NCBI GenBank assembly: GCA_016860785.1
Contig: BOKC01000002.1
Coordinates: forward strand, 1-64,000
Direction: 5' to 3'
DNA length: 64,000 nucleotides
Origin: Patescibacteria group bacterium
GTDB lineage: Bacteria; Patescibacteriota; Minisyncoccia; Phycocordibacterales; BOKC01
Part shown: positions 2,979 through 60,314 of the stretch, one piece after another
Position numbering within the stretch: position 1 is the stretch's first letter
How the letters are laid out: each line of letters begins with the position of its first letter
Translations under genes and position numbers: made by a program
The notes under the pieces: generated by a model
What the model saw: the letters and a program-made list of their open reading frames with translations, nothing else
Database searches by the model: none
Told to the model about the DNA's origin: nothing

Positions 2979-3530
2979 ATGGCACTTTTTACAGGAAAAG
3001 GTGACGACGGTACAACAAAAACATACAGTTGTCCGCCGGGCACTAGAATCTCAAAAAATTCAGCGGTAGCTGAAGCCCTCGGCTCTTTGGATGAAATTAA
3101 TTCCTTTCTCGGTCTTTGCAAGGTTAAAACTAGTGACTTGAAGTTAGCTCAAAGAAATTTTGCCGAGATAATTCACGACGCCCAAGAAAACCTCTTCATT
3201 GTCCAAGCGGAGGTTGCCGGCGCTCCGAAAAATATTACCGCAGACAAGGTCAGGCAGATGGAAGACATTATCAACTCAATTGAAAAAGAATTACCACCGA
3301 TAACAAGTTTTTTTATTTCCGGAGGTTCGGAGCAGGCGGCGATGTTGGATGTCGCTAGAACTTTAGCAAGGAGAGCCGAGAGGAGAGTGGTGGCGGGAGA
3401 GGAGGTGGGTGAAGTAAAAATTTCCGCCGACACAAAATCTTTTCTCAACAGGTTGTCTAGCTTACTTTATGCACTGGCGCGGTTGGCAAATCACTTGTCT
3501 GGAGTCAAAGAAACCGCTCCGAAGTATTGA
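2979..3530 (+). CDS. PduO-type cob(I)alamin adenosyltransferase
   Basis: The 183-residue protein transfers the adenosyl group of ATP to corrinoid cobalt, making coenzyme B12. The N-terminal ATP-binding motif TGKGDDGTTKT is intact. The later helices SKNSAVAEALGSLDEINSFLG, SGGSEQAAMLDVARTLARRAER and FLNRLSSLLYALARLANH are the family signatures, and the length is standard. No other cobalamin gene is nearby. In reduced genomes this enzyme usually serves salvage for a B12-dependent enzyme such as class II ribonucleotide reductase, but that partner is not in this window. Confidence 0.9.
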   Translation: MALFTGKGDDGTTKTYSCPPGTRISKNSAVAEALGSLDEINSFLGLCKVKTSDLKLAQRNFAEIIHDAQENLFIVQAEVAGAPKNITADKVRQMEDIINSIEKELPPITSFFISGGSEQAAMLDVARTLARRAERRVVAGEEVGEVKISADTKSFLNRLSSLLYALARLANHLSGVKETAPKY

Positions 3531-3542
3531 AGATTGAATAAT

Positions 3543-3618
3543 GGTGCCTATGGTGTAACGGTTAACACTCAAGTTTGTGGAACTTGCAATTCGGGTTCGA
3601 TTCCCGATAGGCACCCCA
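3543..3618 (+). tRNA. tRNA-His (GTG)
   Basis: A full cloverleaf can be drawn. An encoded extra 5' G at 3543 faces C73 at 3615. The acceptor stem is GTGCCTA/TAGGCAC, the D stem GTGT/ACAC, the anticodon stem CAAGT/ACTTG with loop TTGTGGA (anticodon GTG), and the T stem TCGGG/CCCGA with loop TTCGATT. CCA is encoded (3616-3618). The G-1:C73 pair is the identity element of bacterial tRNA-His. Confidence 0.95.
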
Positions 3619-35512: not shown

Positions 35513-36061
35513 CACATATTCTCCGGTATCGGTGTTGATTCTTAAAATATCGCCCTCTTTGATGAAAAGCGGCACCTGAACTATCGCCCCGGTCTCCAAA
35601 ACAGCTTCTTTAGTTGCGCCTTGGGCGGTATTACCTTTGACTGCAGGATGAGACTCTTTCACCGCCAATTCAACTTTTATCGGCACCTTTATGCCTATAA
35701 TTTTTTCATTAAACACGAGCGCTTCGGCCAAAGAATTTTCTTTCATAAATTTGCCCTGTGGCCCAATCATTTCTTCTCCAAAAAAGAATCTGTCGCGCGA
35801 ATTGTCTGGGTCGCAAAACCAGTATTGACCCTTGTTTAGATATAGAAATTTTATTTCTTTTTTCTGAAGATCAGCTTCCTCGGCTTTTTCGGAAACATGA
35901 AAAGACCGTTCGGTAACTTTGCCAGTTATTAAATTTTTTAATTTAGTAGCGTTGACCGGCTTTCTTTGCTGTTTTCGGAAAACGTGCGAACTTAAAACTT
36001 CATATGGCTCGCCGTCTAGCTCTATAAATTTTTTCTCCGTGATTTCGTTGTATTGCAACAT
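35498..36061 (-). CDS. efp: Elongation factor P
   Basis: The 187-residue EF-P relieves ribosome stalling at polyproline. Three beta-barrel domains are recognisable (start LQYNEITEKKFIELDGEPYEV, end ILRINTDTGEYVERV). The loop that normally reads PGKG or PGRG is replaced by FRKQQRKPVNATKL, so the usual modified lysine or arginine at the tip is not in its standard context. I start at the ATG at 36061; the upstream ATG at 36100 adds a non-conserved extension. Confidence 0.92.
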   Translation of the reverse strand: MLQYNEITEKKFIELDGEPYEVLSSHVFRKQQRKPVNATKLKNLITGKVTERSFHVSEKAEEADLQKKEIKFLYLNKGQYWFCDPDNSRDRFFFGEEMIGPQGKFMKENSLAEALVFNEKIIGIKVPIKVELAVKESHPAVKGNTAQGATKEAVLETGAIVQVPLFIKEGDILRINTDTGEYVERVS

Positions 36062-36096
36062 AATAGACAATAAGTTATTACAAAAGTCGCTTAATT

Positions 36097-36378
36097 TCAA
36101 GTCTTTACCTTTTCTTTTCTAAACTTGCCAAAAAACGCGCCAACAGACGAACCAATAACAAACCAAAAAATTGAAATTGTAAGAAAGATGTTTTTCCCGA
36201 AAAATTTTATTAGTTCAGCGTTTAGAAAATAATCAAGTCCTGCTAAGGGGAAGAAGATGATTGGCAAGAAGGTGTCGGCGAAACACCAATCGTCTAGACA
36301 AATTGCTTTGATAAAAATAACAACCCAAACAGTCAAGACGCCCAGAAAACCGCCCTTAAGCCAGTTAGGAACATGCAT
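36097..36378 (-). CDS. Small polytopic membrane protein
   Basis: The 93-residue frame starts immediately after the recA stop codon (TAA-ATG). It has three likely membrane segments (about 8-25, 33-50, 62-83: FLGVLTVWVVIFIKAI, LPIIFFPLAGLDYFL, IFLTISIFWFVIGSSVGAFFG). No family is recognised. Coupling to recA suggests co-transcription, but a functional link is not evident. Confidence 0.6.
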   Translation of the reverse strand: MHVPNWLKGGFLGVLTVWVVIFIKAICLDDWCFADTFLPIIFFPLAGLDYFLNAELIKFFGKNIFLTISIFWFVIGSSVGAFFGKFRKEKVKT

Positions 36379-37407
36379 TTACTTATCTTTTAACTGCTCT
36401 TTTATTTTTTTCAGAATATCGCCTGTAATTTTTGGTTCTGATTTTAGAAATTGTCGGGCAGCGTCATAGCCACGTCCGAGCTTAATTTCCTCACTCTTAC
36501 CCTCCGGACGATAAGTGTAAGATCCACCGCTTGATTTTTCAATAATCTTCAATTTTTCGCCAAGCGCCATAATTTCTCCTTCTCTAGAAATTCCTTCGTT
36601 ATACATCAAGTCAAATTCGGTTTGCTTGAAAGGCGCAGCCACTTTATTTTTTACAACTTTTGCTCGGATGCGAGAACCCATAATTTCTTCCCCTTTTTTA
36701 ATTTGGGCTATACGTCGGATATCAATTCTGACCGATGTATAAAATTTAAGAGCTTTACCACCCGGAGTTGTTTCTGGATTGCCAAACATCACCCCGATTT
36801 GCATTCTAATCTGATTTATAAAGATGACAATTGTCTTGCTTTTGGCTACGATAGCTGTCAATTTTCTTAAAGCTTGGCTCATCAGGCGGGCTTGTTTGCC
36901 GACGTGATGTGCGCCCATTTCGCCTTCTATCTCGTCTTTCGGAGTTAGAGCGGCGACAGAATCTACAACTATAACGTCTAGTTTTCCAGAACGCACCAAA
37001 GATTCTACAATTTCAAGAGCTTGTTCTCCGGTGTCTGGTTGAGAAATAAGAAGTTCGTCTATTTTTACACCCAAGCGTTTTGAATATTCTGGGTCCATGG
37101 CGTGTTCTGCGTCAATAAAGGCACAGACCCCGCCTTTTTTCTGGGCTTCGGCGATTACATGCAGGGAAAGGGTGGTTTTTCCAGAAGACTCTGGACCATA
37201 TATTTCTATAATTCTGCCTCTTGGCATACCACCGACTCCGAGCGCGGCGTCCAATCCTATAGATCCGGTCGGGATTGAGTCCACATTCACTTTAGGTTTT
37301 TCACCGAGTTTCATTATCGCCTCTTCTCCAAAACGGGACTTTATGTCGCGCAAAGTTTCGTCTATATTTTTTCCAGAGACCCTTTCTTCTTTTTTTGCTT
37401 TTTTCAT
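36379..37407 (-). CDS. recA: Recombinase RecA
   Basis: The 342-residue RecA has Walker [14 protein letters not shown], Walker [15 protein letters not shown], the L1/L2 DNA-binding loops ([21 protein letters not shown] and [20 protein letters not shown]), and the C-terminal domain. I use the ATG at 37407 ([12 protein letters not shown]); nine more codons upstream are hydrophobic and non-conserved. recO and ssb, its partners, are elsewhere in this window. No LexA-type box was seen upstream. Confidence 0.97.
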
Positions 37408-37457
37408 GATAGAAATACTTATTAGACAAAACAAAGTGAGTTTTAGAATTTTATCTG

Positions 37458-37492
37458 CAGTCCAAGTTTTTGCGAAGCAAAAACTTGGACTG
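37458..37492. repeat. Perfect 16-bp inverted repeat between ORF 37529 and recA
   Basis: CAGTCCAAGTTTTTGC-GAA-GCAAAAACTTGGACTG. It lies upstream of recA and downstream of the 37529-37888 gene, all on the minus strand. It may be a terminator for the upstream operon or an operator. A T tract is lacking. Confidence 0.6.
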
Positions 37493-37528
37493 CCCTAGAA
37501 AAACATATTCACTCGCTTTGTTCGTTTA

Positions 37529-37888
37529 TTATTTTTCTAAATTATACACCAATTTAAGAACTTTTATCCTTTCTCTCCCCAATCGGTCTTTGGCTGAAAT
37601 CTTTATTGCATTATATCCTGGCGCTAGAATAAATTTTTCAAGAAAAACACCTTTTTCATCTATAAAAATCGGCGAATCATTAAGACTCAAAAAAGAAATA
37701 TTTCTTGCTCTCCCGTGGATTTTTACCAAGCTTTCTTCAAAGCCACCCCCGTCACTTGGTTCGTAAATTTCTAAAATTGGACCGCTGATTATACCCCGAG
37801 CTTCAAACAGGGAGTAACCGACTATGACTAAAGCAAAAAACGCTACCAAAGCTATTTTTAGGACTGACTTGAAATCAGGGTTTTTCAT
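37529..37888 (-). CDS. Membrane-anchored Ig-like protein
   Basis: The 119-residue protein has a membrane anchor at about residues 10-27. One beta-sandwich domain of the glucodextranase/Big type follows (SLVKIHGRARNISFLSLNDSPIF, FILAPGYNAIKISAKDRLGRE). Its start overlaps the ftsK stop by 4 bases, so the two are translationally coupled. The role is unknown, possibly envelope-related. Confidence 0.75.
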   Translation of the reverse strand: MKNPDFKSVLKIALVAFFALVIVGYSLFEARGIISGPILEIYEPSDGGGFEESLVKIHGRARNISFLSLNDSPIFIDEKGVFLEKFILAPGYNAIKISAKDRLGRERIKVLKLVYNLEK

Positions 37889-40107
37889 CGGTTTTCTGCC
37901 CCGTATTCTTCGGGTGAATTTTCAACCCCAACTTCGTCATTTGTTATAACTTCTCTTGGTTTGGCACCCTCGCCGGCGCCGACCACTCCTCTTTCCTCAA
38001 GCATGTCTATGAGTCTTGCGGCTCTGGCGTATCCTATTCTAAGACGCCTTTGAAGATAAGATGTTGAGGCCTTACCCGCTTTAACAACCAGCTCTCGGGC
38101 CTCTTCGTATAAATCATCATCTACATCCGAATCAGAGTTGCTAAGCTCTATGGCGTTTTGAGCTGTTTCAAGATTGATATCTATAGTCGAGTTGTCGCTT
38201 TGATTGTTTTCGTAAATAAATTTAACCACATCTTTGACTTCGGCTTCTGAAATATAGGCCGTTTGGATTCTCAGAGGTTTTGACATATCACTTGAAAGAT
38301 AAAGCATGTCTCCGGCCCCAAGCAGTTTTTCGGCTCCAGTCATGTCAAGAATGGTTCGTGAATCAATCTGACTTGCGACCTGTAGAGCAATTCTTGTTGG
38401 GATGTTAGCTTTTATCAGTCCAGTGATAACATTGACCGATGGTCTTTGAGTTGAGAGTACAAGATGTATGCCAACCGCTCTTGACATCTGAGCTAGTCGA
38501 ACCACTGCGGCCTCCATTTCTCTCGGAAAACTTGTCATAATATCAGCTAACTCATCAATAAAGATTACTATATATGGCATGGCTTCCGGCATTTCAGCTT
38601 CGTCTCTACTGCCACCTTTCTTACTTTTCAAAACCGGTTCAAGAATGTTTTTGTGGTAGGAGCCGATATCTCGCACTTTCTCTGCCTCCAATATGTCATA
38701 TCGGCGATCCATTTCTTTGGCTGCCCATTTCAGCGCTAAAATGGCTTTTTTAGGGTCGGTCAAAACCGGCGTTAAGAGATGTGGAATTTTATTGTAGAGA
38801 GTCAATTCCACCCTTTTTGGGTCAATTAGTATGAGTTTAAGGTTTTCTGGAGAGTTTCTGTAGAGAAGGGAAGTGATAAGAGAATGAACCATAACACTTT
38901 TACCACTTCCGGTTGCTCCGGCGATCAGAAGGTGAGGCATTCTAGCGATATCATCAAAATGGGCTTTGCCTGATATTGCTTTACCCAAAGCGATAAACAT
39001 TGGTTTGGGTGAATTTTGAAACTCATTTTCGGCCAAAATGCTTCCCAAGCCAACCGTTGTTTTTATACTATTGGGTATTTCAATTCCGACCAATGATTTT
39101 CCGGGTATTGGTGCTTCAATTCTTAGCGGGTGGGCGGCTAAAGCTAGAGCCAAATCGTTTTGCAAACCGACGATTCTTGAAAGTTTTATACCCTCTGCCG
39201 GCTTTAGAGCGTATCTAGTTACAGTCGGGCCAATTGTAATTTCATCCATTTCAACATTTATGCCGAAATTTTGCAGGGTTCTTTTTATGATGTTGGCGTT
39301 GGCTTTGATGTCGCCAACACCCGGCTTGCCAGAATCTCTGGATAGCAAATCAAGCGGGGGAGCTTTGTAAGCCACACCGCTTATCTTGCTTAAGTTTATC
39401 GGTAAGTCTTCGTTTTTATTTTTAGTATCCTTTTTTGCCTGCTCCTTTTTTTGAATTAGCTCTCTTGATTCTTTCGCTTCTTTGGTTTCCATATCTTCAT
39501 TAAGGTCTTCATCAGAGCCACCGTTTATCTTTATATTTTCAACTTCATTTTCCACCGCGTCTGTATTTGGGGAATTTTCTTTTGCTCCAAACCCAAACAA
39601 GCGCCTTGTTTTCAAAATTAATTGCCAGACGGCTGTCAGTCTTAATCTTGTGTCAAAAATTATTATCAAAGAGATTATTGTCAAAGAAAGCAAAATAACC
39701 ACCGCTACTATCGAATCAAAAAGTTTTAAAGTTGGAGCCGCTATCAACGCTCCGATCTGTCCGCCTTTATCGGTAAAAATCAACTCCAAAACTCCCATTC
39801 CGGAGAGAAGGAACAAAATCCCACCAATAATTTGTGGCCACGCCATCCTCCTTTGGACTGAAAACAAGAAAGCTGCCCCAAGAATAATTAGGATTGTTGG
39901 CAAAATGAAATATCCCCAGCCCAAAAGAGGTTTTAATATTTTGATTGCGACTTCTCCGACTATTCCGGCTTTCTCAAAAAATGCCACCGCCAGAAAGAAA
40001 GCCAATACAAAAAAAACTACTGCCAAGATACTTTGAAAAGTTTCAGATTGCGCAAAAGAAAAACTTTCTGATGTTGTTTTTTTATTTTTCTTTTTTTTGC
40101 GTCCCAT
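37885..40107 (-). CDS. ftsK: DNA translocase FtsK
   Basis: The 740-residue protein has four N-terminal membrane spans (about residues 20-170) and a charged linker of about 100 residues. The motor has Walker A IAGATGSGKSVMVHSL, Walker B YIVIFIDELADIM and QRPSVNVITGLIKANIPTRIA. The C-terminal gamma winged helix (SYLQRRLRIGYARAARLIDMLEE) reads polar DNA motifs. It drives chromosome dimer resolution at division. I prefer the ATG at 40107 (MGRKKKKNKK); the frame stays open to an ATG at 40146. Confidence 0.95.
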   Translation of the reverse strand: MGRKKKKNKKTTSESFSFAQSETFQSILAVVFFVLAFFLAVAFFEKAGIVGEVAIKILKPLLGWGYFILPTILIILGAAFLFSVQRRMAWPQIIGGILFLLSGMGVLELIFTDKGGQIGALIAAPTLKLFDSIVAVVILLSLTIISLIIIFDTRLRLTAVWQLILKTRRLFGFGAKENSPNTDAVENEVENIKINGGSDEDLNEDMETKEAKESRELIQKKEQAKKDTKNKNEDLPINLSKISGVAYKAPPLDLLSRDSGKPGVGDIKANANIIKRTLQNFGINVEMDEITIGPTVTRYALKPAEGIKLSRIVGLQNDLALALAAHPLRIEAPIPGKSLVGIEIPNSIKTTVGLGSILAENEFQNSPKPMFIALGKAISGKAHFDDIARMPHLLIAGATGSGKSVMVHSLITSLLYRNSPENLKLILIDPKRVELTLYNKIPHLLTPVLTDPKKAILALKWAAKEMDRRYDILEAEKVRDIGSYHKNILEPVLKSKKGGSRDEAEMPEAMPYIVIFIDELADIMTSFPREMEAAVVRLAQMSRAVGIHLVLSTQRPSVNVITGLIKANIPTRIALQVASQIDSRTILDMTGAEKLLGAGDMLYLSSDMSKPLRIQTAYISEAEVKDVVKFIYENNQSDNSTIDINLETAQNAIELSNSDSDVDDDLYEEARELVVKAGKASTSYLQRRLRIGYARAARLIDMLEERGVVGAGEGAKPREVITNDEVGVENSPEEYGAENR

Positions 40108-40264
40108 TTGAATTATTTTTCTTACTTGATTAAACAATGATAGCATAATTTTAATTTGCCTTGCGGTTTAAATCTTGGTTTTCCAAGCACTCTCCAAAAT
40201 TTCCTTGCATTATTCTTCCCGTAACAAAATCCACACACTGTATCGCCAAGTCATTGATATTTAC

Positions 40265-40363
40265 GTCCTTTACGGATATACTGTCCTTTAAGGTTTCCCA
40301 CACTTTTATAAAAGACAAAATCTGGTGGATTAATAAAGGACACTATATGAACGATAAAAGACA
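40265..40363. promoter_or_regulatory. TAAARGACA iteron-like array (promoter part)
   Basis: Inverted copies are at 40265-40272 and 40283-40290 (GTCCTTTA). Direct copies TAAAAGACA are at 40309-40317 and 40355-40363, and TAAAGGACA at 40334-40342, spaced 25 and 21 bp. The array spans the start codon of the HTH gene. Further copies lie inside that gene. Confidence 0.7.
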
Positions 40364-41183
40364 AATACAATTTAGCCCTAATAACGACCTTCAAAATACT
40401 GATTTAAATGGCTTATATGTGAAGGACGCAGTTTCTTTTATAAAAGACAATAATTTTTCTTATTTTTATAAAAAGACAGAAAGATTGGTTTCAGCGGTAT
40501 ATCTTTTGACAAGTCTTTTTGATGACAGAGAACCAATCAAGGATACTTTGAGAAAGAATTCTCTTGAGCTTCTTGATTTGTCTTTAGTTTCAAAATTTAC
40601 CATTGCCAAATTTGGCAAAAAAAGCTGGTTGGATCAGTGGGAGAATCAGCTTTTGAAAGTTGATTCTTTCCTTGAAACTTCTTTTTTTGCTGGTCTTATT
40701 TCACAAATGAATCTTGATATATTAAAAAAAGAGGTTGAGAAGATGGCCGGATTAGCTAACTCCTATTTAGAGCGTTGTGATTTGGGGGGTAAAAACGGTT
40801 TGTCAAACGACTTCTTTTTCGTTCAGAATCATGGGCTTATAGGACAATTTGAAAAAGACAATGTGGGTCAGACTGATGAGAGAAATAAATTAAATTACGA
40901 TAAAGGACATAATGGCGCGTCAAATCAAGAAATCAAGATTAATCACGTAGTACAAGGCAAAGACAAGGATGAAAAATTTGGCAAAGAGCGAAAAAATAAA
41001 AGGCAGATAAAGATTTTAGATATTATAAAAGACAAAAAATTGGCTTCTATAAAAGACATTTCTGATAATATAAAAGACTGTAGTGAAAAAACCATTCAGA
41101 GGGAGCTAATTTTCATGGTAAAAAGTGGAATTCTCAAGAAAGAGGGGGAGCGAAGATGGAGTCGGTATTCATTAAATCTCTAA
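40347..41183 (+). CDS. HTH protein carrying repeated TAAARGACA motifs
   Basis: The 278-residue protein has an N-terminal helical region without a known family (about 1-150, including SAVYLLTSLFDDREPIKDTLR) and a low-complexity linker. The C-terminal winged helix (about 215-278) is of DeoR/HTH type: IKILDIIKDKKLASIKDISD, TIQRELIFMVKSGILKKEGERRWSRY. I start at the ATG at 40347. At least ten TAAARGACA-like words occur from the promoter through to the HTH-coding part, several encoding IKD(K/I/N/C). It could be an autoregulator or a replication-initiator-like protein with iterons; both are inferences. Confidence 0.7.
   Translation: MNDKRQIQFSPNNDLQNTDLNGLYVKDAVSFIKDNNFSYFYKKTERLVSAVYLLTSLFDDREPIKDTLRKNSLELLDLSLVSKFTIAKFGKKSWLDQWENQLLKVDSFLETSFFAGLISQMNLDILKKEVEKMAGLANSYLERCDLGGKNGLSNDFFFVQNHGLIGQFEKDNVGQTDERNKLNYDKGHNGASNQEIKINHVVQGKDKDEKFGKERKNKRQIKILDIIKDKKLASIKDISDNIKDCSEKTIQRELIFMVKSGILKKEGERRWSRYSLNL
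41026..41079 (+). repeat. TAAARGACA array (3' part of the HTH gene)
   Basis: TAAAAGACA at 41026-41034 and 41050-41058 and TAAAAGACT at 41071-41079 are spaced 24 and 21 bp, nearly the same spacing as the promoter triplet (25 and 21). Other copies are at 40441-40449, 40469-40478 and 40911-40919. Confidence 0.65.
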
Positions 41184-41388
41184 ATAGAGGATAGCCAATA
41201 GGGTAAGGTCTAGGTAAATTTGGTTAGAGCGATCTAGAAGATCAGCGTTTAGTTTTGTATTTCCCCATACCCTAAACCCTAACCCCCATACCCTGAATCC
41301 TAATTTTAGAGTTATCCACAACCATATCGTTGGTTATAGCTGTCTTTTTATGTAAAATTGACTTGTCGGGAGAGGTATATCAAGCACG

Positions 41389-41416
41389 TTGCTTTTAGGT
41401 TGTTTTGTGGTATACT
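41389..41416 (+). promoter_or_regulatory. Promoter of the S-layer-like gene
   Basis: TTGCTT-N16-TATACT lies about 450 nt upstream of the start codon. A second candidate, TTGACT/TATCAA, overlaps just upstream but has poor spacing. Confidence 0.45.
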
Positions 41417-41720
41417 GTTCCGAATACAGATAAGCTTGTAATGGCTAGAAATCCTGTAAGCAAGGCAGTAAATTATCGTCTTAGAATAGCTGCCCGGTCT
41501 GTAAAGTTTCTACCAAATTCTGAAATTCTGAAATTCTGAAATTCGGGTACTTTGAAAATTAAATATTCGTTTGTGAGATTAAAATATCTTTTTCAGAGAT
41601 ATCAGAATTTTCCTTAATGTGGGTGTCTTGTTGAAATTCAGTCTAAAATTTATCAACTAAATTTTCGTTCCACTTTAGTCGAGGGGATCGAAAAGTTGGT
41701 TAAAAATTTATCAGCAAATT

Positions 41721-41770
41721 TCCAGCACCAACTTTGTATTCGGGCTCTCAAATACAAAGTTGGTGCTGGA
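41721..41770 (+). repeat. Perfect 20-bp inverted repeat in the S-layer leader
   Basis: TCCAGCACCAACTTTGTATT (41721-41740) and its exact complement (41751-41770) are separated by CGGGCTCTCA. It is followed by a CGCCGG/CCGGCG hairpin. Long leader hairpins like this often stabilise abundant messages. Confidence 0.75.
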
Positions 41771-41876
41771 AAAGAAAATTATCAGCACAACGCCGGCTTT
41801 TGTCGAAGTCCGGCGAGTTATTAAGATTCTCTCCAAAAACTTTTACCAGTAAACGGGGAGAAAATAATTATTAAAA

Positions 41877-43802
41877 ATGAGTTTTAAATTAAAAATCGTT
41901 GCAGGTTTCGTAGGCTTGGCAATGGTTATGGGCGCCGTTGGAGTAGCCACTCCAGCTTCAGCTCAAACTGTTGATGAGCTTCAGGCCATGATCAATACAT
42001 TGATGGCCCAACTTGCTGCTTTGCAAGGCGGTGGTTCCGGTTCCGGAGCTGCTTGTACTTTCACTCGAAGCTTGACCGTTGGTTCAAGTGGAGCTGATGT
42101 AACTTGCTTGCAAAATTACTTGACAAGTACCGGTCACTTCACCTTTGCAGGTGGCGCAACTGGATACTTTGGCCCAGTAACTAGAACTGCAGTTGCCGCA
42201 TGGCAAGCTGCTAACGGAGTTTCTCCGGCCGCTGGTTTCTTTGGTCCAATATCTATAGCAAGACATGCTGCCTTGACAGCAGGAGTTACACCTCCTCCTC
42301 CATCAGGACTTCCAGCAGGATGTACTTCAACCGTTGGCTTTAGCCCAACCACAGGTGCGAGATGTGATGGCACCACTACACCACCAACTACCTTGACTGG
42401 TGACGGTTCTATCACAATCAGTACTTCTGCTTTGGTAAGCAGTGGTACAGCTGTAAAGAAAGGCGAAACAAAAAACGTTCTTTCCACAAGACTTAAAGCT
42501 TCCTCTGGTCCAGTAAGAGTTGATAGAGTAGAAGTTAAGTTTAACGAACGACCTTGGTTAACAATGAGCCAAGTTCAGCTTAGAGATGGAAGCGGTAATG
42601 TTTTGGCCACCAAAACACTTTCTGGTTCATCTGATGTTACTGAAGTAACAGTGGGTTCTGATTACCGAGTTCGCTTTGAAGGTGTAAACTTGGTTGTTTC
42701 TCCTGGCACAGATGCTGACTTAGTAGTAGCTGTTTCTGTCCTTGCTTCTTCAGACAAGATTACCGGACAGACAATCACTACCAGCATCCCAACCGGTGGA
42801 ATTAGAACTGTAAACGGCATCGGTTTCTCTGAGACCATTGGTCCTAGCGCAACCTTTACCTTTACTCTTCCAACCACAGGTTCAGTTGCTGACATCTATA
42901 CCAGCTCCAGTCCTAACAGTCCTACAGCTGGATTTACTTCTGTTGCAGCTGGAACGACTCAAACAGAAAATGTTGTTCTAGGTAGGTTTAGAATCAAATC
43001 TCAGAACACTTCAGGTACGCTTGAAACCATACACTTTACTATTCAGACACAAGCTTCGACCGGAGGAGGTGGCCCGGCAGCGGGAACTCTCTTTAGTAAC
43101 GTTCGCTTGCAGTCTGGAAGCTTCAATTATGGTGCTTCCACTCTAGCTTCAACCACAGAGTTTACCAACTTGCAGGTACCTTTACCGGTTGACCAGTGGG
43201 TTGAGTTTACTTTGACTGCTAACGTTGCCGGAGCTGATACTTCAGGTGGAGTAGTAGCTTCTACCACCTTGGACGCTTCAACTATCGCTGGAATTGACAC
43301 AAACTTCAATTCTCTTACAGTTTCAAACGCTGTTGATGTAACTAGCTCAGATCGGACCTTCCTACAGGCAGGTTTAGGAGCTTCTTCTATGTCAGCCGTG
43401 ACATCAGGTTGTGTTGTTAGAAACGCAGACTCTGGTTACAATCCGTTCTGTACAGCAACCTTTACTGTTACTCTGACTAACACTGGCAACACAGATGTCT
43501 TTATCCACAAGACCCCAGGACAAGCATTAGCAACATCCTCAACCTATGCTTCCTCAACTATTACAGTTGTAAATACTGTAGGTGAAACTCCTGCTGGTGA
43601 CACCTCAACCTCATACTTCATTGCCCCAGGGGTCTCCAGAACGTTTATCTACACAGGAATTTTGAGGTCAGCAGTTGGTTCCAATCCAGTGATAAGCGAA
43701 ATGAGGATTACCGGAATTAAGTTTGGAAGTACCAATGCGGCTAACACCGCCAACACTTTGACTTCCGGTATAGGTAGTCTGCATGTAGTTCAAACTCTGT
43801 AA
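41877..43802 (+). CDS. Large S-layer-like surface protein
   Basis: The 641-residue protein has a signal peptide (IVAGFVGLAMVMGAVGVATPASA) and a short helical stretch TVDELQAMINTLMAQLAALQ, likely a coiled coil. A peptidoglycan-binding domain (SLTVGSSGADVTCLQNYL, GYFGPVTRTAVAAWQ) and about 480 residues of Ser/Thr/Gly-rich beta domains follow. Codons are dominated by a preferred set and the leader is long, which suggests high expression, as for a major S-layer subunit. The domain RVDRVEVKFNERPWLTMSQV also appears in the protein at 45657-46463. The assignment as S-layer is an inference. Confidence 0.75.
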   Translation: MSFKLKIVAGFVGLAMVMGAVGVATPASAQTVDELQAMINTLMAQLAALQGGGSGSGAACTFTRSLTVGSSGADVTCLQNYLTSTGHFTFAGGATGYFGPVTRTAVAAWQAANGVSPAAGFFGPISIARHAALTAGVTPPPPSGLPAGCTSTVGFSPTTGARCDGTTTPPTTLTGDGSITISTSALVSSGTAVKKGETKNVLSTRLKASSGPVRVDRVEVKFNERPWLTMSQVQLRDGSGNVLATKTLSGSSDVTEVTVGSDYRVRFEGVNLVVSPGTDADLVVAVSVLASSDKITGQTITTSIPTGGIRTVNGIGFSETIGPSATFTFTLPTTGSVADIYTSSSPNSPTAGFTSVAAGTTQTENVVLGRFRIKSQNTSGTLETIHFTIQTQASTGGGGPAAGTLFSNVRLQSGSFNYGASTLASTTEFTNLQVPLPVDQWVEFTLTANVAGADTSGGVVASTTLDASTIAGIDTNFNSLTVSNAVDVTSSDRTFLQAGLGASSMSAVTSGCVVRNADSGYNPFCTATFTVTLTNTGNTDVFIHKTPGQALATSSTYASSTITVVNTVGETPAGDTSTSYFIAPGVSRTFIYTGILRSAVGSNPVISEMRITGIKFGSTNAANTANTLTSGIGSLHVVQTL

Positions 43803-43865
43803 GTTTAGCCAAATTCTGAAACTCAAAAGCTTAGGTCATTTCCATGAAAATGGTCTAAAGCATAC

Positions 43866-43894
43866 AAAAACCCGCCGATAAGGCGGGTTTTTGT
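43866..43894 (+). terminator. Rho-independent terminator
   Basis: AAAAACCCGCC-GATAA-GGCGGGTTTTTG closes the S-layer-like transcription unit. Confidence 0.9.
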
Positions 43895-44125
43895 ATTGAT
43901 TAAAATTTTGTAAATGTCTAAAACCCACTGACCTTTTTATTGCTAATGCAGTATATGTAAAATTATGAAAACTCGCGTTTGAAATACAAATCGATTATGG
44001 TGTGTTTTGAACAGTTTCTTTAAATACTACCAGACAATCTAGGTTGGAAAGGCAATGCACACACATATGGTACCCCTCCTAGAATGGAGGACTTCAGACG
44101 TATCCTTCCCGTAATCTTACAAAGG

Positions 44126-44144
44126 ATTACAGGATAGATTACAG
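44126..44144. promoter_or_regulatory. ATTACAG direct repeat
   Basis: ATTACAG-GATAG-ATTACAG has the same word and the same 5-nt spacer as the site at 1316-1334 upstream of another surface-protein gene. Confidence 0.4.
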
Positions 44145-44196
44145 ACTTTAGGCAAAGACAAAAAGAGAAATAGGGCTCTACTTAGCCAAGTCGCAG

Positions 44197-44235
44197 AAAC
44201 CCCCCAAGTCCGAATGGGCTTTGGGGGTTTTTGTT
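44197..44235 (+). terminator. Strong rho-independent terminator
   Basis: A stem of C-rich and G-rich arms with a GAAT loop is followed by TTTTTG, 83 nt before the dockerin-like gene. Confidence 0.85.
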
Positions 44236-44317
44236 TTGCCCTAATTTGCTTTTTACTCTTGCTTTTTTTTGTATCTTATTATAGTATTATAAAGATTATT
44301 AGAACCTAATAAAAAAT

Positions 44318-45574
44318 ATGAAAAACAAGAATATTACTGAAAGGATTACATATCTTGCTCTAATCTTTTCAATCGGCTTTATGCCGGGAATTTCCGGAGC
44401 CGACCTCTCTCTCATGTCGGAAGTAAGGCAAGTAACAGTTTTGGAAATCGAAACAACCGATGTACTTGTCATCGACCCGGAAGTAGAAGCCGAGGTTATC
44501 GAAACAGAAGTGGTTGTCTTGCCGGAAGTTTCTCCAGATTCTGAATCTTTAGAATCGGGAGAAGTGGTTTCGGAAGCCCTTGTTAGTTCTTCTGGATTTA
44601 CAGCTGGAGAGCAAGAACTATTTCAGCCAGAAATTGTTGGACATGAACAAATAAGTGAAGATTTGTTGCCGTCTAAATGTTCGGTTGCTGATTTCAATGA
44701 AGACTCAATCATTGATACTCGGGATATTTTAGATTTTCTAAACGCTTGGAACGAAGAAGACCTTTCAACTGATGTTGACGAGAATGGGGTTATTGATGAG
44801 GCCGATTTCAAACTATTCTTGTCTATTTGGATGGGCTGCAAAGATTGCTTAAGGGCTGATTTTAACAGTGACGGAACATACAATTCTCTAGATATTTTGG
44901 CTTTTTTAAACGCTTATAATGCCGGCGAAGACTCTGCTGATTTCAACGATGACGGTGTTATAAATTCTGATGACTTTAATTATTTCTTGGCTATTTGGCA
45001 GAGTTGTAAAGAGGGTTCTGAATTTACTATCCCAGATCCTGGTGGCGGTACAAAAGATGGAGATATCAAAGGTCCAGTAGATGGCATAGAAATTGATAGA
45101 GACAAAATTGGCGGTGGCGATGATGGCGATGGTGGTGGTAATGGCGATGGTGGTGGTAATGACGGAGGCGGTTCTTCTGGTGGCGGTTCTTCTGGCGGTT
45201 TTATTAGCGGCGGCGGTGGGCTTGTTCTTGGTGCTGATTCCGAAGATGATTTAGAAGGTCTTCGCGAAGAATTAAGAAATCTAATAGAACAAATGATCGC
45301 TCTTTTGCAATCGGAATTAAACAAGAAGTTGGCTATGGCCGAATCAGGTACGGATGGAGCGGTATTTGTAGAAGGGGTTGTCTTGGGTGAGTCTGTCGAA
45401 GCTCAAGAATTGGAACCTGTGGATGAAGAGCAAGTCGAAGTAGTGGCAAATGAGAATCTGGAAGAGGGCGTAGAAGAAAGCGAGGACGAGGGAAACAGAT
45501 CCTGGCTTTGGCTGATTCTGATTTTGATTCTCGCCATCATAATCTTTTTGGTCCTAAAAAAGAAGAAACAATAA
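44318..45574 (+). CDS. Dockerin-like, C-terminally anchored surface protein
   Basis: The 418-residue exported protein has a signal segment at about 8-30. The middle has calcium-loop repeats of the dockerin type I/EF-hand kind: CSVADFNEDSIIDTRDILDFL, DVDENGVIDEADFKLFL, RADFNSDGTYNSLDILAFL and DFNDDGVINSDDFNYFL. A glycine/serine-rich spacer, a helical stretch (LREELRNLIEQMIALLQSEL), and a C-terminal membrane helix followed by KKKKQ complete it. It may dock partner proteins to the cell surface. Cohesin domains are not evident in the window. Confidence 0.8.
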   Translation: MKNKNITERITYLALIFSIGFMPGISGADLSLMSEVRQVTVLEIETTDVLVIDPEVEAEVIETEVVVLPEVSPDSESLESGEVVSEALVSSSGFTAGEQELFQPEIVGHEQISEDLLPSKCSVADFNEDSIIDTRDILDFLNAWNEEDLSTDVDENGVIDEADFKLFLSIWMGCKDCLRADFNSDGTYNSLDILAFLNAYNAGEDSADFNDDGVINSDDFNYFLAIWQSCKEGSEFTIPDPGGGTKDGDIKGPVDGIEIDRDKIGGGDDGDGGGNGDGGGNDGGGSSGGGSSGGFISGGGGLVLGADSEDDLEGLREELRNLIEQMIALLQSELNKKLAMAESGTDGAVFVEGVVLGESVEAQELEPVDEEQVEVVANENLEEGVEESEDEGNRSWLWLILILILAIIIFLVLKKKKQ

Positions 45575-45656
45575 AACTTTCTAAAGTTTTGTTTGATACA
45601 AAAAGTCAACGGGAAACTGTTGACTTTTTGTATTTTTTGATATACAATATAAAAAT

Positions 45657-46463
45657 ATGAAATATCAAGCTAAAACACTGCTTTCCCTCGTAATCGTTTT
45701 GGGAATTTTTGTATCTTTTCAGAGGGTTGAAGCTGCGATTTCTTTTGTTGAACTTCAAAGAGAAATAGGTGTTGTTTCCATTATGGTTTCAAATTTGAGC
45801 CAAGATATTCAATCTGGGAGGATTTCACCAGAAGCTGCCAAATCCGAAATCCAGAGAATTTCTCAAATTATCAATTCTCTTATGCGGGAGTCATCTCTCT
45901 TTTCTCAAGGCCAAGTTTTAGGGGTTTATTCTTCTGGGCGGGAATTTGCGCCTGTTGTGCCAAGTCGTGAGGCGGTTGTTGTTCTTGAGCCGATAAGTGG
46001 CTCGGGTGTAGTCAGGATGAATATCGGCAACACTTTTAGTAATACACTTTTATCTTTTTCAATTAAGTCACTTCGGTCGGATATTGAAGTCAGAAGAATT
46101 GATGTTACATTTAACAAACGGATTTGGCCCTATATAGGGGAAATAACACTTTCTGCTGGAGGTAAAATTTTGGTTCGTATAGATCCGCAACAAAGCGACT
46201 TTTTTGAAAACACGAAAGGTGAGTACACCCTTCGTTTTGGTGGTTTCTCTTATTTTATTCCTATGAACAGTACTCGGACTGTTACCTTAACAATGAAGCC
46301 AAGGGACAGGAATTCCAGCGCTGGAGAAGTTTTTGATACCAAAGTTTTTCTCAATAATGGCGCTTTAAGAGCGGTGGATGAAGCTAATTTTCAACATAGT
46401 CTGCCTTCTCAACATGGAGGTTCAAATGGCTCTTTTTCTCGGAAGTTTGAAATAGTATACTAG
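45657..46463 (+). CDS. Smaller S-layer-like paralogue
   Basis: The 268-residue exported protein has a signal peptide (LLSLVIVLGIFVSFQRVEA) and an N-terminal helical stretch. A beta domain like one in the 41877 protein follows: RRIDVTFNKRIWPYIGEITLSAGGK and TLRFGGFSYFIPMNSTRTVTL parallel RVDRVEVKFNERPWLTMSQV and RFEGVNLVVSPGTDADLVVAV. It may cap or anchor the main layer. The start is close to a TATACAATATAA stretch. Confidence 0.65.
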   Translation: MKYQAKTLLSLVIVLGIFVSFQRVEAAISFVELQREIGVVSIMVSNLSQDIQSGRISPEAAKSEIQRISQIINSLMRESSLFSQGQVLGVYSSGREFAPVVPSREAVVVLEPISGSGVVRMNIGNTFSNTLLSFSIKSLRSDIEVRRIDVTFNKRIWPYIGEITLSAGGKILVRIDPQQSDFFENTKGEYTLRFGGFSYFIPMNSTRTVTLTMKPRDRNSSAGEVFDTKVFLNNGALRAVDEANFQHSLPSQHGGSNGSFSRKFEIVY

Positions 46464-59162: not shown

Positions 59163-60314
59163 TTAAATTTTGTATAAACTTGAGGTTAATTCTACCATAT
59201 TTTCTAATCTAAACTCGTCAAGAATCTTATTTTTTAATTCGGCGCCCAATTTTTGCCAATCACCTTTTTCTGATAACAAGTCTTGCAGAGCTTTTGTCAA
59301 ATCTTCTTTTTCTCCGGGTGTGAAAAGTAGACCGTTTTTACCACTCTCAATTATTTCAGGGACCCCACCAACTTCCGAAGCAAGAGTCGGCAATCCAGCC
59401 AAACCGGCTTCTAGAATTACGTAAGGCAAACCTTCAGTTCTCGATGGTAGGACAAAAATATCAAAGGCCTTTAAGTACCTTTGCGCGTTTTCCACGTAGC
59501 CCAACAAAAAAACCTTACTCTTCAGATTGTTTTTTTCTATTATCTTTTCTAATTTCTTTCTTTCTTCGCCTTTGCCGCAAACGATTAAGATAGCGCTTTC
59601 AAATTGGTTGGAAATTTTAGAGAAGGCCTCGATCAGCAAATCCACCCCTTTGTTTTTGTGAAGCTCGGAAATCGCGCCGATCCATAACCTGTCTTTTAAC
59701 TGGGGCAAAAGCTTTTTTCGCGCTTCATCTTTTTCAAAAAACTCAATTGGCCGGATGCCGTTATAAATTAAATGAATCTTCTTTTTTGTCCCCGGCCAAT
59801 TCATATCGTTTACGGTTTTTTTTGAAACAGCGATTGTTTTGTTGGTCATAAGAACTGTCAGCCATTGAAGAAATTTCCAAAGGAATTTTTGCCAGAAAAA
59901 CTTACTGTCGTTGAAAGCCCAGCCATGAGCAGTGAAGATAGTAATAGGGTATAGGGTATAGGGTTTAGGGTATAGAGAATAAATACGGGCGGAGAGGGTG
60001 CCGAGGAGGCCAATTTTGGAGCTGTTGAGGTGGATAATATTCGGTTTTTCTTTTTTATAAATTCGGATAAGCTCAAAAAAAAGAAGAAAATCTTTGAAAG
60101 GATTTATGTTCCTCTGAGAATTTTTTAATCGGATTGTTCGAATATTCTTTTCGGCCAATTTCTTTCCTAAAATGTCACCTTCACCGAAAGCGACGACGGT
60201 TTCAAAATCTTCTTTTGGCAAATTGGTCGCCAAGTCAAAAACATAGCGTTGCGCTCCTCCAAAATTACCCTTTGTAATTACGTACAAAACCCTCTTTTTT
60301 TGCCCTTTCCACAT
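59163..60314 (-). CDS. GT4-family glycosyltransferase
   Basis: The 383-residue GT-B enzyme has the N-terminal donor-side loop VITKGNFGGAQRYVFDLA. The C-terminal half has the family motifs IGAISELHKNKGVDLLIEA, VFLLGYVENAQRYLKAFDIFVLPSRTEGLPYVILEAGLAG and EX7E (EGLPYVILE). It probably adds sugars to a lipid-linked glycan, together with the sugar transferase and epimerase downstream of it. A TAGGG-type tandem repeat (59944-59976) is in frame and encodes the proline/tyrosine-rich insert SLYPKPYTLYPI. Confidence 0.9.
   Translation of the reverse strand: MWKGQKKRVLYVITKGNFGGAQRYVFDLATNLPKEDFETVVAFGEGDILGKKLAEKNIRTIRLKNSQRNINPFKDFLLFFELIRIYKKEKPNIIHLNSSKIGLLGTLSARIYSLYPKPYTLYPITIFTAHGWAFNDSKFFWQKFLWKFLQWLTVLMTNKTIAVSKKTVNDMNWPGTKKKIHLIYNGIRPIEFFEKDEARKKLLPQLKDRLWIGAISELHKNKGVDLLIEAFSKISNQFESAILIVCGKGEERKKLEKIIEKNNLKSKVFLLGYVENAQRYLKAFDIFVLPSRTEGLPYVILEAGLAGLPTLASEVGGVPEIIESGKNGLLFTPGEKEDLTKALQDLLSEKGDWQKLGAELKNKILDEFRLENMVELTSSLYKI
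59944..59976. repeat. TAGGG-type tandem repeat inside the glycosyltransferase gene
   Basis: Four near-copies of TAGGGTAT(A/T) lie in a coding region. On the coding strand they read CCCTATACC-like words giving alternating YP and LYP residues in a loop. Confidence 0.7.

Follow-up and report, generated by a model that had tools for sequence, protein, structure and literature searches.

A putative autorepressed regulator of chromosome replication in Paceibacteria, the gene of which carries a DNA word also found at the likely origin

In an order of Paceibacteria, a 9-bp word, TAAARGACA, is kept at the DNA level in both the promoter and the coding sequence of a gene encoding a predicted winged-helix protein. 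This word also clusters at the cca-yraN locus, where it is fused to DnaA-box words and lies beside parS, and in another order both places share one different word. It is thus considered probable, if by no means certain, that this gene encodes an autorepressed, origin-binding regulator of chromosome replication, with binding being inferred in the absence of binding data. Because the word that studs the gene is also built into the likely start site of replication, these findings suggest that chromosome replication in this large group of uncultured bacteria is subject to a regulator not described so far.

Paceibacteria form a very large, mostly uncultured group thought to be host-dependent, and their origin has been addressed little. 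In the open-access literature searched, no description of an oriC or of an oriC-binding regulator was found for Parcubacteria/Paceibacteria (subscription papers were not covered), and in one paper the putative origin was marked by nearness to dnaA (PMC12102498). The outcome here is a concrete 35-bp origin signature, an address for the origin and parS (cca-yraN) and a candidate regulator. It also provides a natural and clear-cut example in which a regulator and both of its main site clusters, coding-sequence sites included, apparently switched DNA word in parallel.

The motif array and the promoter of the gene

The window, namely the whole 64-kb stretch of DNA analyzed, comes from a draft genome of 574 kb in 8 contigs (G000), the nearest named relative of which in the collection is a Candidatus Paceibacter sp. 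MAG. A motif scan of the window revealed eight exact and three one-mismatch copies of TAAARGACA between positions 40264 and 41079 (Table 1), with additional one-mismatch copies at 40432 (minus strand), 40838, 40852 and 40997. The remaining 63 kb outside this array contains just two exact copies, at 59690 and 61681, in agreement with a preliminary description of this DNA that had reported no similar density elsewhere in the window. The array listed in that description is real, although the copy placed at 40911 should read 40901, and those placed at 40265, 40283 and 40469 were one base off. Rechecking the coordinates reproduced the spacings given for the triplets at the two ends (25/21 and 24/21 bp). 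Strict phasing at two helical turns, a distance to which that description had called these spacings close, was rejected, since motif spacing is broad: values lie between 9 and 60 bp, and peaks fall at 11-12, 17, 19-21 and 24 bp. No Rfam match to an RNA element was obtained across positions 36000-46000 of the window.

Table 1. Features of the gene and its surroundings (window coordinates).
Feature	Position	Strand	Basis
Sigma-70-like promoter TTGATA-N17-TATACT	40254..40282	+	Consensus match only; spacer motif recurs in orthologues
Motif TAAAGGACG, 1 mismatch, within promoter spacer	40264..40272	-	Motif scan
Motif, exact, begins at final base of -10	40282..40290	-	Motif scan
Motif, exact, 5' of start codon	40309..40317	+	Motif scan
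Motif, exact, immediately 5' of start codon	40334..40342	+	Sequence and motif scan
Winged-helix protein gene, 278 aa, stop codon included	40347..41183	+	ORF; orthologue search
Motif, exact, coding sequence	40355..40363	+	Motif scan
N-terminal helical domain, residues 23-147, Avd/S23-like four-helix bundle	40413..40787	+	AlphaFold2, Foldseek
Motif, exact, coding sequence	40441..40449	+	Motif scan
Motif AAAAAGACA, 1 mismatch	40470..40478	+	Motif scan
Low-confidence linker, residues 148-204, varies among orthologues	40788..40958	+	AlphaFold2, sequence comparison
One-mismatch motif pair in linker, TATAGGACA (40838) and AAAAAGACA (40852)	40838..40860	+	Motif scan
Motif, exact, linker	40901..40909	+	Motif scan
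Winged helix, residues 205-278, MecI/BlaI-like	40959..41180	+	AlphaFold2, Foldseek, weak sequence similarity
Motif, exact, winged-helix coding part	41026..41034	+	Motif scan
Motif, exact, winged-helix coding part	41050..41058	+	Motif scan
Motif TAAAAGACT, 1 mismatch	41071..41079	+	Motif scan
DnaA box TTATCCACA, 3' of gene	41312..41320	+	Recurrent in orthologous loci

The promoter listed in Table 1 is the best sigma-70 match of the region and contains one inverted motif copy in its spacer. Examination of orthologue promoters revealed the motif core (RGACA/TGTCY) within the -35/-10 spacer in 44 of 67, where 3.5 were expected from shuffles; in the control, only 5 of 106 promoter-like matches in the flanks held this core in the spacer. 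As judged from sequence, this layout is that of an autorepressor, which lends support to the earlier proposal of an operator array inside the gene acting in autoregulation, with binding again inferred. The AAAGGA of the copy immediately preceding the start codon may serve also as ribosome-binding site.

Downstream of the gene, 61 of the 75 orthologous loci have an exact DnaA box at most 420 bp after the stop codon (0.3 expected), and its orientation never varies. This box may correspond to a promoter through which DnaA controls the next gene, or to a datA-like site; in most displayed loci having the box, it lies some 35 bp ahead of a TATAAT-like -10. Directly 3' of the gene, at 41263-41303, the window also contains a short imperfect repeat (CCCCATACCCTAAACCCTAA / CCCCATACCCTGAATCCTAA), and a similar stretch (TAGGGTTCAGGGTTTAG) occupies the equivalent place in a same-genus relative (L002, ~1393-1411).

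Conservation of the motif among orthologues

An orthologue was found in 89 of the 99 genomes of the order that were searched. In each locus of an initial set of 30, the gene has 2-10 exact motifs and its surroundings next to none. Densities were next calculated for 77 loci, comprising the window and 76 named orthologues (from Zambryski-, Taylor-, Kaiser- and Lloydbacteria, among others), and amounted to 9.9 copies per kb in the 150 bp 5' of the start codon, 2.7 per kb in the coding sequence and 0.005 per kb in the flanks. Relative to the start codon, density is maximal at -120 to 0, corresponding to the promoter, and at 420-720, corresponding to the variable, low-confidence linker. The coding sequences contain 169 copies, as compared to 32±5 (maximum 48) following synonymous-codon shuffling, and these copies occupy two reading frames and both strands. 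From this excess, and from the use of two frames and both strands, it is inferred that selection is acting on the DNA of the motif copies. Because the orthologous loci are related, the motif counts do not represent independent events.

Could the array simply reflect chance or the codon usage of a protein rich in lysine and aspartate? In-frame, the word reads IKD or KGH/KGQ, and the protein is indeed lysine-rich. Such an effect is nonetheless hardly tenable and was rejected on the basis of the synonymous shuffling, with promoter density also exceeding coding density, copies falling in two frames and on both strands, and the identical word recurring at a second locus. Neither of the grounds for refutation named in the preliminary description was upheld: orthologues sharing 30-49% identity keep the DNA motif well above what codons require and, as to a similar motif density in other lysine-rich genes, the flanking genes lack the motif (0.005 per kb).

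Predicted fold of the protein

An AlphaFold2 model built with 57 sequences yielded a mean pLDDT of 79.7, with values mostly above 90 within both domains. That the protein ends in a winged helix, as previously noted, is borne out by this predicted structure. In Foldseek searches, the N-terminal domain matched Avd/S23 four-helix bundles with a probability of 1.00, a target TM of ~0.8 and E values of 1e-3 to 1e-2 (best 1.1e-3), and the winged helix matched MecI/BlaI. The protein thus resembles Avd/S23 in the fold of its N-terminal domain and BlaI/MecI in that of its winged helix, with weak sequence similarity to the latter. It differs from Avd/S23 in that the likeness rests on predicted fold alone, with no Pfam or NCBIfam family being assigned to the protein, N-terminal domain included. 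It differs from BlaI/MecI in its partner domain and sites and in the absence of a Penicillinase_R match, with Pfam matches to the winged helix being below cut-off and to other families.

Avd forms a pentamer. Were the N-terminal domain described here also pentameric, one particle could hold several sites. Neither Pfam nor NCBIfam revealed a response regulator receiver domain, the fold being a four-helix bundle plus a winged helix; nor was the tandem winged-helix Rep fold seen, with one winged helix being predicted. The ParB N-terminal and HTH_ParB domains are also absent from the protein (P0001). Distant matches in other classes were set aside, as these share the C-terminal winged helix alone and present no repeat array. 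In other Patescibacteria (L285-L294), the C-terminal winged helix is found on proteins with a Fic-like N-terminal part, and the repeat array is absent from the gene.

The motif at the cca-yraN locus

Upstream of cca, between this gene and the UPF0102 (yraN) gene, the motif lies at a fixed distance of 26/27 bp from TTATCCACA. The composite consensus, TGTCYTTTATACACATATCCACAGAGTTATCCACA, comprises the motif, in the form TGTCYTTTA, overlapping TTATACACA, followed by TATCCACA and then TTATCCACA. We take the latter three to be DnaA-box words, on the basis of the DnaA-box consensus, such that three DnaA-box-like words occur within 35 bp of one intergenic region. When this pattern was used as query, it was detected in 103 of 297 genomes, with zero control matches. 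The pattern is strict, and about two thirds of the genomes contain no exact composite. Apart from a single exception, there is one copy per genome, found at a median of 1.07 kb from the cca match and no more than 3 kb away in 44 of the 46 cases in which both are on the same contig.

A search for TGTTTCACGTGAAACA, allowing up to 2 mismatches, identified parS-like sites at 30 of 43 cca loci versus none of 80 own-gene loci. In G000, such sites are confined to C4:81.3-81.9 kb. The link between the own-gene motif and replication raised in the preliminary description is therefore strengthened, given a single-copy element next to parS in which the word and DnaA boxes are joined. By contrast, the partition-initiator role entertained in the same place has become less likely because the genome carries a normal ParB: both the ParB N-terminal and HTH_ParB domains are found in a separate protein (G000:C3:7745-8779), indicating a true ParB.

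In several genomes, a second cluster of motifs and DnaA boxes lies 3' of cca; in G000 and G003, this cluster is situated between convergent genes, which is not a promoter position. The number of exact motifs at cca varies among genomes from 0 to about a dozen, with none being found in some (e.g., L229, L231 and L240). In G086, the cca locus lacks an exact motif and the yraN-side locus retains a cluster. Motif copies also occur inside cca, as in L032 (8388-8437), where the CCA-adding enzyme reads DPYKGQ; such cca-internal DNA pairs are shared by many genomes of the order.

Location of the origin

GC skew was fitted with correction for coding strand. In G066, the fit is tight at cca (525.5 kb, with cca at 524.4 kb), with dnaA being 113 kb away at 411 kb; masked sequence follows. 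The fit for G050 is likewise tight at cca (139.1 kb, with cca at 137.6 kb). In G090 (L128, G090:C2), the fit is tight at dnaA (94.5 kb; range 92.5-97.5 kb) and not at cca (125 kb). Three DnaA-box words are seen in G090 at 93.6 kb, and a motif cluster together with a parS-like site is seen at cca, 30 kb away. This discrepancy, which could stem from relocation of the origin or from the presence of two candidate sites, remains unexplained. The remaining fits are too wide to be decisive, including that of the closed genome G003, where skew, as sampled, changes direction within 69-98 kb and cca is at 83 kb; no local skew minimum was detected in G230:C3.

A DnaA match was obtained in all 12 genomes checked, and in genomes where dnaA and cca share a contig, the two are ~28-52 kb apart, G066 aside. 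An origin next to dnaA in all genomes was rejected, since G066 and G050 fit cca; G090 fits dnaA. Because of parS and, in part, GC skew, the cca-yraN locus is taken as oriC, an assignment that is likely but not proven. In G003, with a genome of 982 kb, the regulator gene is at 884 kb and the origin region at 84 kb, placing the two ~180 kb apart.

A different word in another order

A homologue was identified in G230, found among sampled genomes of other orders of the class, with hhalign returning an E value of 6e-8 over nearly the whole protein. Outside the order of the window, TAAARGACA pairs occur only at background level. In G230, the gene and its promoter instead contain ~22 copies of TCCGGCAA. 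The sole other dense cluster of TCCGGCAA in this genome, at C3:41235-41420, comprises 6 copies in 185 bp as well as TCCGGAAA variants; next come five exact parS sites, spaced regularly at 48 bp, and after these the yraN orthologue. The recognition helix reads CSEKTIQREL in the window protein versus FSDRTLRNDI in that of G230. Because the gene of G230 and its parS/yraN cluster share TCCGGCAA, protein and sites appear to have changed together between G230 and the order with TAAARGACA. This switch rests on G230 alone, and so on one independent lineage.

The position of these clusters raises the possibility that the protein is mainly an organizer of segregation or of the origin domain that coats or bridges clusters near parS together with ParB, with its own gene as a second cluster and replication control being secondary. 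The origin cluster is beside parS in most genomes tested and adjoins the five parS sites in G230, and DNA bridging would be expected of an oligomer that is Avd-like and bears flexible winged helices. However, the best-conserved copy is fused at 26/27 bp to DnaA-box words rather than to parS, and the genome already has a complete ParB. As such, a primary role in segregation is deemed unlikely, yet it is the alternative taken most seriously.

Proposed action and comparison to known systems

As an autorepressed regulator of replication, the protein would bind the TAAARGACA word through its winged helix, with the Avd-like N-terminal domain mediating oligomerization and flexible linkers allowing one particle to grip several sites. 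Binding at its own promoter, where sites lie in the -35/-10 spacer and at the -10, would lead to self-repression. At oriC, the protein would occupy the site overlapping the first DnaA box and so compete with or position DnaA, thereby setting initiation. The net effect on DnaA is not decided; inhibition is preferred over help, by analogy with HP1021 and CtrA. The copies inside the gene may add operator strength and offer a titration site coupled to dosage, and DNA looping at the gene is inferred.

In HP1021/Cj1509 of Helicobacter and Campylobacter and in CtrA, oriC sites overlap DnaA boxes and the regulator competes with DnaA (PMC6052347, PMC4285127). The motif at the putative oriC is, as for HP1021/Cj1509, CtrA, Spo0A and AdpA, a short site overlapping a DnaA box. 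Unlike regulators of the HP1021/CtrA type, the window protein has no receiver domain, combines an Avd-like bundle with a MecI/BlaI-like winged helix, has sites that also fill its own coding sequence and belongs to Patescibacteria.

RctB of Vibrio chromosome 2 is associated with tandem origin repeats, an operator in its own promoter, titration sites and an origin DnaA box (PMC6090056). The present system resembles RctB and iteron plasmid initiators in presenting repeat arrays at the putative origin and an operator in the promoter of the gene. RctB and the HP1021/CtrA type are the nearest analogues in action, and on fold the protein belongs to neither family. It could accordingly be asked whether the protein is a true iteron-type initiator, opening or helping to open the origin with DnaA as partner, given such tandem repeats, the interleaving of DnaA boxes and the precedent of RctB. 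This is improbable, somewhat more so than a primary role in segregation: a DnaA match is present in every genome checked, the gene lies away from the origin (G003), the fold, with its one winged helix, is unlike that of double winged-helix Rep proteins, and the number of motifs at cca is highly variable.

Returning to the regulator proposed here, a broader and more speculative reading, to which we would give slightly less than even chances, is that it belongs to a Patescibacteria-specific class of replication regulators in which the gene is its own titration device, with promoter and linker sites that match oriC and are rewritten together when specificity drifts. Under this reading, TAAARGACA in one order and TCCGGCAA in another would constitute such a rewritten pair, a point held just as tentatively.

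Distribution of the motif across genomes

Across G000, 52 exact copies of TAAARGACA were counted. As called for in the preliminary description, the full genome was scanned, and clustering beyond the gene itself proved to be confined to the putative origin, in and around cca (the end of contig C4, with one copy at the start of C7), and to a locus near valS (C8). Tandem motif pairs were a feature of 88 of the 118 genomes examined from the order, as compared to 2 control matches; the 125 pairs listed divide into 56 at the gene, 45 close to cca and 24 at other places.

The third cluster lies 5' of valS in G000, G033, G097 and G016, which represent different families, and shows that gene regulation or an extra titration site is also involved. 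These clusters, found upstream of valS in four families and also around cca, are what would be expected of a plain transcription factor with a regulon of its own gene, cca and valS, serving tRNA end-processing and charging, in which case proximity to DnaA boxes and parS would be incidental to cca being at the origin. Such a factor would not account for the fixed fusion of the motif with DnaA boxes, the clusters in convergent intergenic DNA 3' of cca, the cluster kept on the yraN side in G086 without an exact motif at cca, or the G230 array beside parS and yraN, making this explanation very improbable. The clusters upstream of valS are found at 3427-3543 and 1836-1863 in L031, as well as in L260, L261 and L262. 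In G000 and G097, a gene encoding a peptidoglycan-binding-like surface protein lies on the opposite side of the cluster.
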